From assembly GCF_015840915.1 (NCBI RefSeq), contig NZ_CP060398.1, forward strand, positions 3,162,001-3,226,000: a stretch of 64,000 bases of DNA. Reading direction: 5' to 3'. Positions 58,556-63,717 of this stretch are shown here, in pieces. The notes under the pieces are model-generated. The model was not told the origin of the DNA and ran no database searches. It worked only from the letters and a program-made list of their open reading frames with translations. The position numbers were made by a program, and so were the translations under genes. Positions within the stretch are counted from its first letter, which is position 1; each line of letters begins with the position of its first letter. This stretch comes from Synechococcus sp. CBW1002. GTDB taxonomy: Bacteria; Cyanobacteriota; Cyanobacteriia; PCC-6307; Cyanobiaceae.

Positions 58556-61500
58556 TCATTCTGGTTTCCTTCCCAGAGCATCAGCTGATCCACGGCTTCG
58601 TTCACGTGGATGATGCGGTTTCACCAACCGTGATGATCGCGCTTGCGGTGCTGCGGACGCTGTTGTGGGCACTGGACACAGCGTGCCCCGCATCAGCAGG
58701 CTGTGGGCGGCCGGCACATAGAACAGGGCCAGGGCGGTGGCCCCCAGCAGACCGCCCGACACCGCGATCGCCAGCGGCGGCCAGAAGCCGGTGGGATCCA
58801 GCATCAGCGGCAGGAAGCCGGTCACGGTGGTGAGCGTGGTGGTGATCACGTGGCGGGTGGCGGGCAGCACAACGGTGGTGGTGGCGGCAGGGTCGCCGCT
58901 GGCGGCGAGTGGATCGGTGCGGATGGCGTTGAGCACCACGATCGCGTCGTTGATCGCCAGGCCGATCAGGCCGAGCGTGCCCAGGATGGCGGTGAAGCCG
59001 AACAACGATCCGCTCAGCTTCAGGGCCAGGGCCGCCAGACCGACCGACAGCAACGCCACCGAGGCGATCAGAGCCGCCAGGCGGAAGGAGCGGAACGACA
59101 GCACCAGGGTGGCGGTCATCAGGATCGTCAGCACCCCCACCGTGGAGAGCAGGTTGGCGATGGCATCACCGCGGGCATCGGCTTCACCGCCGTAGGACAG
59201 CGTCACCCCGGCCGGCAGTTGCCAACCCTCCTGGTCCAGCTGCTGCCGGAACCCGCCCAGCACGGCATCGGGCAGCGACCCGGCGGAAAGAAAGGCCTGC
59301 ACGGTGTTGATGCGCTGCCCGTCACGCCGATCGATGGAGGCCAGCTCCGGTTCCAGCCGCAGGCGTGCCAGGGCCGAGAGCGGCAGGCTGTCGCCACTGC
59401 TGGGAGACACCACATCCAGGGAGGCCATCTGCTGAAGATCCTCCCGCTGGGCTTCGGCCACCTGCACCCGCACCGGCAGGCTGGTGACGCCTTCGAGGAT
59501 CGAACCGCCCACGACCCCTTCGAGGCCGGCCTGCAGTTGCCGGGCGATGGCGCGGTTGTTGAGGCCGCTGCGCTGGGCCTGCTGTTCATCCACCGCCAGG
59601 GCCAGACGGGGCAGGGCTTCGCTGAGGCTCGCACTCGTGTGGGTCACCGCCGCCTGTTGCGCCAGGCGCTGCCGCAGCTCATCACCGATCTGCCGCAGCT
59701 GCGTCAGGTCGGGGCCCTGCAGGCGCAGCTCGATCGGTGCCTCGAAGGGCGGACCCTGCTCCAGCTGCTTGACCAGCATCTGCGCTTCCGGGAAGGTCCG
59801 GTCCAGGCTCTCCTGAAGGGAGCGAAGGGTGTCACGGAGGCGAGAGATGCTGTGAAGCTGCACCAGGCCTTGGGCGTAATGGGGCGCGTTCTCCTGGGAG
59901 GCGACCACGTTGTAGAAGAACAGCGGCGCGCTCTCGCCCAGGAACCAGTGCACATCGGCGACGCCGGGATGCTCGCGCAGGCGCTGGCGGGCGGCCAACG
60001 CCAGCGCTTCGGTGCGGTCCAGGGTGCTCTGCTGCGGCAGGCGCATCTCGATCTGGAACTGGTCGCGGTTGGTGGGCGGAAAGAACTGCTGCTCGAGGCT
60101 GCCGAAGGCCACGAAGCCGAGCACCGGCAGCACCAGCGACAGGGCCACCCCCTGTCAGGGATGCCGCAGGGCGTGCTGCACGGTGCGGCGGTATCGGGTC
60201 GCGAGCAGGGGCAGCGACAGCCCCTGCTCCCACCAGCGCGCCCGTGGCCCCAGAGGCCGCCAGTGCTGCAGACGGGCGGTGAGCGCCGGGATCACCGTGA
60301 GGGAGAGGAACAGGGAACTGGCCAGCGCCAGGATCACCGTGAGGCCGATCGTGCCGATGAATTCCCCGGTGGCCCCCGGTGAGGTGGCGATCGGCACGAA
60401 GGCCAGCACCGTGGTGAGCGTGGCGGCCAGCATCGGCACCAGCAGGTAGCCCACCGACTGACGCACCGCGGCGCCGGCGGAGACACCGCTGCGCAGGCGT
60501 TGCTGCATCTCATCGACCACCACGATGGCGTTGTCGATCAGCAGCCCCAGAGCAATCACCAGGCCGGTGGCTGACATCTGATGCAGAGGAATCGCCAGGA
60601 GCCGCATCCAGCCGAACACCATCAGGGCGGCGAGGGGCAGGGCCGTCCCCACCACCAGCGCCGCCCGGCCACCGAGCATCAGCACCGACACGGCCACCAC
60701 CATCAGCGCGCCGGTGATCAGGTTGCCGATCACACCATCGAGGCGCTCCTGCACGTAGCGGCTCTGATCCAGCACCGTGTGCAGCCCGAGGCCTTCGGGC
60801 AGGGCTGCGCGAACCTCCTCCAGCTGCGCGCGCGCCTGCTGCGCCCAGCGGTCCACACGTTCACCGGAGGCCACCGTGGCCGACACCACCACGGCGGGAT
60901 GGCCGTGCACCAGCGCCAGCCGACTGGCGGGGCTGCGCACGCCCCTGCTCACCGCTGCCACCTGCCCCAGGCGGGTGCTGGCGCCATCGGCGCCCGTTTG
61001 CACGGGGATGGCGCGGATGCGCTCCAGCGAATCCAGGGCGCCATCCACCTGGAGCAGCAGCGCGCTGCGAGCGCCCCGCACCTGCCCGGCCGCCTCCTTG
61101 GCATCACTGGCGGCGATGCGCTCGGAGAGGCCCTGGGCCGTGAGCCCGAGTCGGGCCAGGTCTCGGGCACCGATCGCCACCTGGATCTCCTCGTCTGGCT
61201 CGCCGCTGAGTTCCAGTTTGTCGGTGCCGGGAAGGGCGCGCAGGCGGGTTTCCAGATCCTCCGCCAGGCGGGCCAGCAGCCCCAGATTGGCGGGTCCGGG
61301 CAGGTCCCAGGTGAGCCCGACGATCAGGGCACTGGCGCCGATGTTGCCGTCGCGGAATTCCGGACCTGAGGCCTCTGGCGGCAGCAGGGGGGTGGCATTG
61401 TCGAGCTTGCTGCGCACCTTGCTCCAGGCCGGCTCCACATCTCGGATCGAATCCTTCAGAGCCACGGCGATCATTGAGGTGCCGGCGGACGAGGTGGAGT

Positions 61501-61735
61501 CGAGATGGTCCACCTCCTGCAGTTCCAGCAGGGCATCTTCGAGTGGTTCGGTGAGCAGCGATTCGACCCGCTCCGGCGTGGCCCCCGGCAGGGCGGTGAT
61601 CACCAGGGCATTGCGCTGGGTGATCAGCGGATCCTCCAGCCGCGGCAGGGTGAGCAGCGACGACAACCCCCAGACCACCACCAGCAGCAGGGTGAGCAGC
61701 AGCAGCTGCCGGTTGCGATGAAAGAGATCGAGCAT
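58556..61735 (-). pseudogene. RND efflux transporter gene split by one in-frame TGA
   Basis: About 1060 codons in a single frame, the normal length for an AcrB/HAE1-type inner-membrane pump, interrupted by one TGA at 60157-60155. The first half (RNRQLLLLTLLLVVVWGLSS, GLLIDNAIVVVDEMQ with the proton-relay Asp region, and periplasmic PN/PC domains) ends HALRHP; the second resumes directly with QGVALSLVLPVLGFVAFGSL and keeps PPTNRDQFQIEMRLP, GLAINDAIVVLNAIR and the last helices. Start is ATG 61735, overlapping the fusion-protein stop (TGATG). Unless the TGA is a base-call error, suppressed or recoded, the pump is not made in full length. A Trp codon (TGG) is the likeliest ancestor. Confidence 0.9.
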
Positions 61736-62982
61736 CAGATCGCTGCCTGCACCCATTGGCCCGGCACGACGCGATGGGTGCCGGTGGCGATCACCTGTTC
61801 ACCGGGGCGAAGGGTGCCGCGCACCAGCGAGCGATCGCCTTCGGTGTGCACCATCTCCACCAGGCGCCGGGCCACCTGCCGTGCCGGTTGTGGGCCTTGC
61901 GCTGCAGCCGCCTTGCCTTGGGTCGTCGAAGCGGGCACGAGCACGAAGACCGACCAGAGGCCCCGTTCCGCTGCCACCAGGGCGTCGGTGGGCAGCCAGA
62001 AGCCCGCCCCCCGTTCGCTGCGCTGCAAGGAGAGGCGGGCCGTCGCTCCCACCGGCAGATCCGCTGCCGGCAACCGCAGGACCACCGTGGCCGTGCGGCT
62101 GCCGGCATCGAGTTGCGGCAGCACGGCGCTGATCGTGGCCGTGAGGCGGCGGTCGCCCACGCTCACAGGATGGCTTTCGCCCACCCGCAGGACCTGGGCG
62201 ACGTCCGGAGGCACCCCCACGCGCAGTTCACGGGGGGCGGCTTCCACCAGGGTGAGCAGTGCCTGGCCGCCACTCACCACCACACCCTCATCAATCAGGC
62301 GCTCGCTGACCGTGGCGGCGAAGGGGGCCACGAGCACGCTGCGGGCCAGGTCGACATCGATCTGGCGCAGGCGGGCGCTGAGGTCATCGACCTGGCTGTC
62401 GGCCTGATCGAGGCGGCTGACCAGTGCCGCGGCGCCATAGATCTGCTGGTCGAGGTCTTCGAGGGAGATCGCCCCCTGGGCATGGAGCTTGCGGCGGCGT
62501 TCCCGCTGCAGCTCCGCCAGGGTGAGCTGCTGGCGCACTTCCTGCACGGCGGCCCGGGCGGTGCGCTGCTGCGCCAGCAGCTGCTGGCGCTGAGCCAGCA
62601 GCCGGCGGTTGTCGAGGCGGGCCAGCGGCCGGCCGGCCAGCACCGGATCCCCCTCTTCCACCAGCACCTGGGCCACGGTGCCGGCGAGCTCGAAGCCGAG
62701 GCTGCTGCTGCGGCCGGCCACCACCTCGCCGCTGTACTCCCGGCTGGTGCGGTACTGACTCACAGGCTGTGCCGTGACCACGGACACGGGCAGGGCCCTG
62801 GCCACAGGCGGACGGGGACGCTGGGCGACGGCCAGGGCGAGGCCCATGGCGGCGGTGAGTGGCAGCAGCCAGCGCAGCTGGCGGGAGGGTAGATGCTGCA
62901 GCAGTTGCCGCAGGGCCGGGTGCCGCAGCTGCGGCGGCGCGTGGGCGCCTGGAGCAGGCAGGGCACCGGAGGCGGAATCCAT
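61735..62982 (-). CDS. RND efflux membrane fusion protein (AcrA-like)
   Basis: 415 residues. N-terminal membrane anchor (LRWLLPLTAAMGLALAVAQ, ~37-55), then the lipoyl domain (SLGFELAGTVAQVLVEEGDP), a coiled-coil hairpin (RRLLAQRQQLLAQQRTARAA to LAELQRERRRKL), second lipoyl half (SVLVAPFAATVSERLIDEGV), beta-barrel (RVGVPPDVAQVLRVGESHP) and membrane-proximal domain (WLPTDALVAAERGLWSVFVL). It links the RND pump to an outer-membrane channel. It overlaps the pump start and is divergent from padR. Confidence 0.93.
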   Translation of the reverse strand: MDSASGALPAPGAHAPPQLRHPALRQLLQHLPSRQLRWLLPLTAAMGLALAVAQRPRPPVARALPVSVVTAQPVSQYRTSREYSGEVVAGRSSSLGFELAGTVAQVLVEEGDPVLAGRPLARLDNRRLLAQRQQLLAQQRTARAAVQEVRQQLTLAELQRERRRKLHAQGAISLEDLDQQIYGAAALVSRLDQADSQVDDLSARLRQIDVDLARSVLVAPFAATVSERLIDEGVVVSGGQALLTLVEAAPRELRVGVPPDVAQVLRVGESHPVSVGDRRLTATISAVLPQLDAGSRTATVVLRLPAADLPVGATARLSLQRSERGAGFWLPTDALVAAERGLWSVFVLVPASTTQGKAAAAQGPQPARQVARRLVEMVHTEGDRSLVRGTLRPGEQVIATGTHRVVPGQWVQAAI

Positions 62983-63004
62983 GGCGGCACGGCGGTGAGA
63001 CCAA

Positions 63005-63019
63005 CGTTGCTAGGCAACG
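63005..63019. promoter_or_regulatory. Palindrome 1, probable regulator operator
   Basis: CGTTGC-TAG-GCAACG, a perfect 6-bp inverted repeat with a TAG centre, 23 bases upstream of the fusion-protein start. It shares the GTTG(n)C-TAG-G(n)CAAC layout with the second palindrome. Confidence 0.7.
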
Positions 63020-63052
63020 CGTTGGGTATTCGCGAAAGTGTATGCACAACAA

Positions 63053-63067
63053 GTTGACTAGGTCAAC
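63053..63067. promoter_or_regulatory. Palindrome 2, probable regulator operator
   Basis: GTTGAC-TAG-GTCAAC, a perfect 6-bp inverted repeat, centred 48 bases from the first. An AT-richer patch lies between the two (around GTATTCG and GTATGCA), suitable for a promoter. Confidence 0.7.
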
Positions 63068-63171
63068 CGCGCCTGCGCGCTGCCGTCGTCGCCTCGGTGG
63101 TCGTCCCAGTGGTCGCGACGGGGGTGCGGGAGGAAGATCGGAAGGCCCAGCACCGCTGCCGATCGTTCCCC

Positions 63172-63717
63172 ATGGCCCTGGCTCACACGATCCTCACGGT
63201 GCTGAGTGAGAAGCCCGCCAGCGGCTACGACATCAGCAAGCAGTTCGAGGAAACCGTCGTCTGCTACTGGAAGGCCACCCAACAGCAGATCTACCGGGAG
63301 CTGGGAAAGATGGAGAAGCAGGGGTGGGTCTGCTGCCAGGTGGTGCCGCAGCTGGGAAAGCCCGACCGCAAGGTCTACGCCATCACCGAGACGGGCCGAC
63401 AGGAACTGAGCCGCTGGTCGGCGGAGCCCACATGGCCCACCCCGATCCGGGAGGACCTGCTGGTGCGGGTGCTGGGTGGTCCGTACGGATCGCGCACGCA
63501 ACTGCTGGAGGAAGTGCAGCGCCGTCGCGCCATCCATGGCCAGCAGCTGGCCTCCTACCAGGAACACGAAGCGGAGGTCCTGGCCCACGCCGCGTTGCCC
63601 CTGCAGGAGCAGTTCCGCTATCTCACCCTGCGCCGCGGCATCCTTTACGAACAGGAGTGGATCCGCTGGTGCGATGAGGTGATCGCCTTCCTGGACGCGC
63701 AGCCGCCAGGCTGCTGA
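63172..63717 (+). CDS. PadR-family transcriptional regulator
   Basis: 181 residues. N-terminal winged helix ALAHTILTVLSEKPASGYDI, SKQFEETVVCYWKATQQQIY and REL, wing LGKPDRKVYAITETGRQELSRW, then a C-terminal helical dimerisation domain (vinculin-like, PadR_C) from ~residue 90. PadR/AcrR-type regulators commonly repress adjacent efflux or detoxification genes on binding aromatic or toxic ligands. The divergent RND operon and two palindromes between support this. Start at ATG 63172; the frame extends further upstream without merit. Confidence 0.9.
   Translation: MALAHTILTVLSEKPASGYDISKQFEETVVCYWKATQQQIYRELGKMEKQGWVCCQVVPQLGKPDRKVYAITETGRQELSRWSAEPTWPTPIREDLLVRVLGGPYGSRTQLLEEVQRRRAIHGQQLASYQEHEAEVLAHAALPLQEQFRYLTLRRGILYEQEWIRWCDEVIAFLDAQPPGC

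Follow-up and report, generated by a model that had tools for sequence, protein, structure and literature searches.

The window analysed here is a 64-kb stretch of a 3.85-Mb genome that consists of a single contig, and the region of interest in it is the 189-bp gap that separates padR from mfp, the gene for a periplasmic adaptor (Table 1). The PadR protein has an N-terminal PadR winged helix (PF03551, 60.9 bits against a cut-off of 27) followed by a Vir_act_alpha_C domain (PF10400, 81 bits against a cut-off of 22.4), the domain composition of the AphA class (PadR-s1), and its start codon, an ATG at 63172, is aligned across 14 homologues. Homologues of padR were found in Synechococcus, Cyanobium and Aphanothece. 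The gene is divergent from those for the adaptor and an RND permease and shares a control region with them, which is the layout of a PadR-controlled RND efflux operon. A mid-gene TGA splits the permease into two ORFs; a one-frame tblastn match (1017 aa, 83%) runs through it, and the permease frame remains 83% identical past the TGA to the permease of a relative (L009), where the latter is a single 1049-aa ORF. The stop codon is either a recent nonsense change or a sequencing error and, because of its position within the gene, the pump of this strain may be non-functional.

Table 1. Features of the padR-mfp locus, in positions of the window.
Feature	Position	Strand	Evidence
padR, AphA-class PadR, 181 aa	63172..63717	+	PF03551 1.2e-16, PF10400 1.1e-22
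Periplasmic adaptor (mfp), efflux operon	61735..62982	-	TIGR01730 1.2e-42, exceeds its cut-off
RND permease gene, interrupted by one in-frame TGA at 60155-60157	58556..61756	-	PF00873 on both halves
Predicted operator 1, TAGGCAACGCGTTGGGTA, 6 of 8 pairs	63011..63028		top-2 conserved dyad centre of 130; 3 mismatches to relatives' consensus
Predicted operator 2, TGCACAACAAGTTGACTA, 5 of 8 pairs	63043..63060		best conserved dyad centre of 130; fills -35/-10 spacer of mfp promoter
-35 hexamer TTGACC, mfp promoter	63061..63066	-	only promoter-like match in 62960-63200
-10 hexamer TACACT, mfp promoter, 18-nt spacer	63037..63042	-	promoter scan; TAnnnT conserved across loci
Palindrome 1, made of the left half of operator 1 and a poorly conserved flank	63005..63019		0-4 of 6 pairs, 11 relatives
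Palindrome 2, made of the right half of operator 2 and the -35 hexamer	63053..63067		2-5 of 6 pairs, 11 relatives

Two palindromes, CGTTGC-TAG-GCAACG and GTTGAC-TAG-GTCAAC, had been singled out in a preliminary description of this DNA, and both are indeed present and perfect, with 6/6 arm positions paired; they are the sole perfect inverted repeats with 6-bp arms (spacer 0-10) in the gap. That description also held two such repeats in close proximity to be unlikely by chance, which overstates what is a mildly unusual occurrence. The window contains 30 perfect 6-3-6 repeats, so 0.09 are expected in 189 bp and two or more have P ~0.004. Somewhere in the 64 kb, the number of pairs expected is ~0.65 for a distance of up to 60 bp and 2.6 for up to 200 bp, and the pair in the gap is the only one found at 60 bp or less; when any spacer of 0-10 is allowed, 1.2 perfect repeats are expected per 189 bp.

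A scan of the genome collection for padR yielded 18 loci, of which 11 (L009-L019) come from close relatives whose PadR proteins are 74-78% identical. All 11 have the adaptor and permease genes divergent from padR, and their gaps align to the window with no indels over the site region, where the DNA beneath the palindromes is better conserved than the rest of the gap. The preliminary description had made conservation in relatives that keep the padR-mfp pair the touchstone for its palindromes, and they fail it, neither being perfect in any of the 11 (0/11). When dyad symmetry was profiled over 130 centres in these relatives, 63051.5 came first (5.82 of 9 pairs) and 63019.5 second (5.73), the next best scoring 4.36. 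The palindrome centres, 63012 and 63060, lie 7-9 bp away from these conserved dyads and rank 53/130 and 6/130, respectively. The earlier idea of a PadR site pair thus survives in part, since the gap does hold a related pair of GTTG/CAAC sites that conservation ties to PadR, but its register was wrong.

The conserved dyads define two 18-bp candidate operators of the form TAnnCAAC-NN-GTTGnnTA, whose centres are 32 bp apart (about three helical turns). The consensus taken from the relatives, TACTCAACNNGTTGAGTA, occurs at 3 places in the 3.85-Mb genome at up to 3 mismatches (reversed control, 0), namely operator 1, operator 2 and one further place inside an ORF, and hence gives no sign of a genome-wide regulon there. 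The operators of the window are themselves degenerate (Table 1), agreeing with the AphA consensus at 9 and 7 of 12 positions, and a 9-of-12 match is not rare by itself. Upstream of operator 1, a third and overlapping half-site of the kind found in L021 was sought by eye and judged too weak. The joint motif put forward in the preliminary description, GTTGNCTAGGNCAAC, was rejected as the mark of a genome-wide regulon because its matches at up to 2 mismatches (52 forward and 47 reverse) are fewer than those of the reversed control (125 and 121).

The mfp promoter reads into the efflux operon, and its 18-nt spacer coincides base for base with operator 2. Transcription of mfp would start near 63030, with operator 1 just downstream of the start; no promoter for padR was found on the plus strand in the scan of 62960-63200. 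Since operator 2 exactly fills the spacer, palindrome 2 is an operator half, GTTGAcTA, fused to the -35 box as read on the other strand, GGTCAA. It is perfect because the window has a C in GTTGAC where the relatives have GTTGAG or GTTGGG. The perfect palindromes would therefore be by-products: palindrome 2 arises where an operator half lies beside a -35 box, and palindrome 1 where one lies beside a flank that drifts.

A search across the phylum (386 genomes) then found homologues of padR in 37 at E 1e-40 or better (40 matches), and 30 of these matches were taken as loci. The operator pattern TAnnCAACnnGTTGnnTA, at up to 2 mismatches and within 350 bp upstream of padR, is found in 11/11 close relatives against a shuffle expectation of 0.02, and in 29/32 more distant loci against one of 0.39. 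These counts are not independent, because the loci are related, and they use a motif drawn partly from the loci counted. L024, L025, L026 and L038 were dropped from this comparison, and L020 was scored as a miss. For a second count of 48 loci, the window included, only L038 (the same contig as L024) was dropped, and for L020, where the pair lies farther out, a region of 800 bp was used in place of 350 bp; L029-L036 were left out of the locus counts because their contigs have the lengths of contigs already represented. On this basis the site is present in 43 loci, and 36/43 have a second site 26-36 bp away, mostly at 27, 30, 32 or 33. In 30/43 loci with the site, NGTCAA comes directly after it, and the -10 hexamer placed on the minus strand at a spacer of 18 nt has, among these 30, T in 28, A in 30 and T in 28 at its TAnnnT positions. 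The conservation of both elements across loci argues that use of the operator as promoter spacer is a general layout.

The 5/48 loci without the site are L024, L025, L026, L037 and L070. L026 is from Veronia, with a PadR at 43% identity, and L037 and L070 have only weak sites with 3 mismatches. In Cyanobium sp. Morenito 9A2 (L024/L038), the padR match begins at residue 16 and the locus has neither an adaptor match nor an operator, so that this padR reads as a decayed or rearranged copy. In a MAG of Cyanobium sp. (CZS25K, L025), padR abuts an inverted adaptor gene with zero gap and no operator, which looks like an assembly join. The padR gene of L020 lies ~540 bp farther away, and there the operator pair stays at the adaptor gene mfp. 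Upstream of padR, five loci (L021, L023, L046, L048 and L051) carry extra copies of CAACnnGTTG 14-16 bp from a main site and so have at least three overlapping sites in an array.

When the 386 genomes were scanned for the pattern with no more than 1 mismatch, there was no sign of a wide regulon: it occurs at 15 places, against 12 counted for the reversed control, and only 2 of the 15 (G278 and G361) adjoin a padR of this type. With the pattern barely above control, the regulator looks local. A genome scan with the AphA form of the site gave three weak places, one of them operator 1. Another element seen in this genome is GTTGACTGGTACAAC, which is present in 26 copies (e.g. G000:C1 333686-333700); the copy examined (L089 877-1935) lies within a 352-aa ORF that, as read from its sequence, looks like a DDE transposase, and the element itself like a multi-copy insertion sequence.

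An idea of which protein binds came from the neighbours of padR. None of the 20 distant loci (L052-L071) was found to have an adaptor resembling that of the window beside padR. The neighbour gene was scanned in 10 of the 20, and encodes a HlyD-type adaptor in two, a Monooxy_af470-like protein in three and an RPE65-type oxygenase, a short-chain dehydrogenase, a GAF protein, an ABM-domain protein and a TPR protein (below cut-off) in one each. The site nevertheless tracks padR homologues down to ~40% identity though the neighbour varies. This points to PadR as the binder, and we infer with considerable assurance that the adjacent PadR would bind the candidate operators. In L055, L064, L067 and L071, an AphA-class padR is divergent from genes for an RPE65 carotenoid-type oxygenase or Monooxy_af470-like proteins, the oxygenase being assigned in L055 by family scan and in L064 by a similar N-terminus only; such neighbours possibly hint at the class of ligand that PadR responds to.

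How the two perfect palindromes are to be understood can be viewed in several ways. That PadR binds the palindromes themselves is highly improbable, even though both are perfect, share an identical layout and are suitably located, and even though the centre of palindrome 2 ranks among the best in relatives and the overlapping repeats of the five array loci also make GTTG-N-CAAC dyads. Neither palindrome is perfect in the relatives, the centre of palindrome 1 ranks 53/130, and the conservation that palindrome 2 does show follows from its spanning an operator half and the -35 box. A view that denies the palindromes a regulatory role, and takes them for RNA hairpins or products of chance, can draw on the frequency of such repeats in the window and on the number of close pairs expected there, and as palindromes alone they may well be of chance origin. 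Nevertheless, the gap scan found no terminator-like site, the underlying DNA is the best conserved of the gap and a hairpin leaves the displaced conserved dyads unexplained, which makes this view equally hard to credit.

It is slightly easier to imagine, although still very unlikely, that the sites serve another regulator acting at the same promoter, because the genome codes for further regulators and binding by PadR is predicted from sequence. Such a regulator would, however, have to account for a site that follows padR as the neighbour gene changes and that is, in relatives, the known AphA site. The reading that we favour, and that is in our opinion probably correct, is that the gap contains two operators for the adjacent AphA-class PadR, one of them in the mfp promoter, through which the pump is repressed, the palindromes being by-products. 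Comparison with relatives shows where these predicted operators lie and how they are placed in the promoter, and repression of the efflux pump by PadR is their likely function.

In the mechanism that can be outlined, each operator would be bound by a PadR dimer. The two dimers would sit on one face of the helix and might bind cooperatively, as suggested by the 32-bp spacing and the precedent of AphA. Since operator 2 overlaps the promoter, bound PadR would block RNA polymerase at mfp, and a ligand would relieve repression, leading to production of the pump. On this reading the locus has AphA-type PadR operators in an ordinary switch of a known kind, and the gain lies in better-placed sites. 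It provides a testable operator for a PadR group of many cyanobacteria that is linked to multidrug-type pumps and oxygenases, and ties that group to the AphA site, which is well mapped. A further lesson is that an operator half next to a promoter box can yield a perfect palindrome, and that placing the true dyad requires footprinting. Our literature search, which had little access to subscription journals, found no published operator for a cyanobacterial PadR of this type.

Among known systems, Pex, a circadian protein in the reference list of PMC3506622, is a cyanobacterial PadR. The same paper describes PadR-s2 and classic PadR repressors that recognize ATGT/ACAT with a spacer of 8-10. The preliminary description had set its palindromes apart from the classic operator, ATGT-N8-ACAT, and this contrast is half right: the tetrads differ, and the classic operator is absent from the gap at up to 2 mismatches (with 2 matches elsewhere in the 3-kb locus), but the conserved dyads share its 4-N8-4 geometry and resemble the AphA type of PadR site. 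LmrR, as presented in PMC5050560, is a PadR encoded beside a multidrug pump, with two sites of which one lies over promoter elements. The present locus resembles it in all these respects as well as in 4-N8-4 geometry, and differs from LmrR and PadR-s2 in its tetrads, in its long PF10400 domain and in that the pump is RND rather than ABC. According to the same paper, cdPadR1 of Clostridioides difficile, also of subfamily s2, recognizes TACT-N11/12-AGTA, two such repeats being present in its own promoter, and needs an AT-rich core. The cyanobacterial consensus, TACT-CAACNNGTTG-AGTA, is similarly TACT-N10-AGTA, although with a spacer of 10, G+C in the core and a PadR of another subfamily.

The closest parallel is AphA of Vibrio cholerae. 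Its structure (1yg2) is the nearest solved one to the 14-homologue PadR profile (E 9.3e-48 over profile positions 1-175; the next is 8ioi, 2e-42), and the two proteins share the C-terminal PF10400 domain and a recognition-helix region that is near-identical in the alignment. PMC6855506 gives ATGCAA-N4-TTGCAT as the AphA site defined by ChIP-seq, and describes AphA as able to bind cooperatively to a pair of adjacent sites. The sites of L052, L054, L066 and L071 match this sequence at 12 of 12 positions and those of other loci at 7-11. The odds seem about even that the DNA code of the AphA class is nearly fixed between Vibrio and cyanobacteria, and that in cyanobacteria a set piece, in which an 18-bp operator serves as -35/-10 spacer and a second dimer sits about three turns off, has been kept upstream of padR while its target varies among pumps, monooxygenases and carotenoid-type oxygenases. 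AphA, for which many promoters have been mapped as targets, does not depend on a divergent pump gene, whereas the PadR of the window would be a local switch adjoining its target pump.
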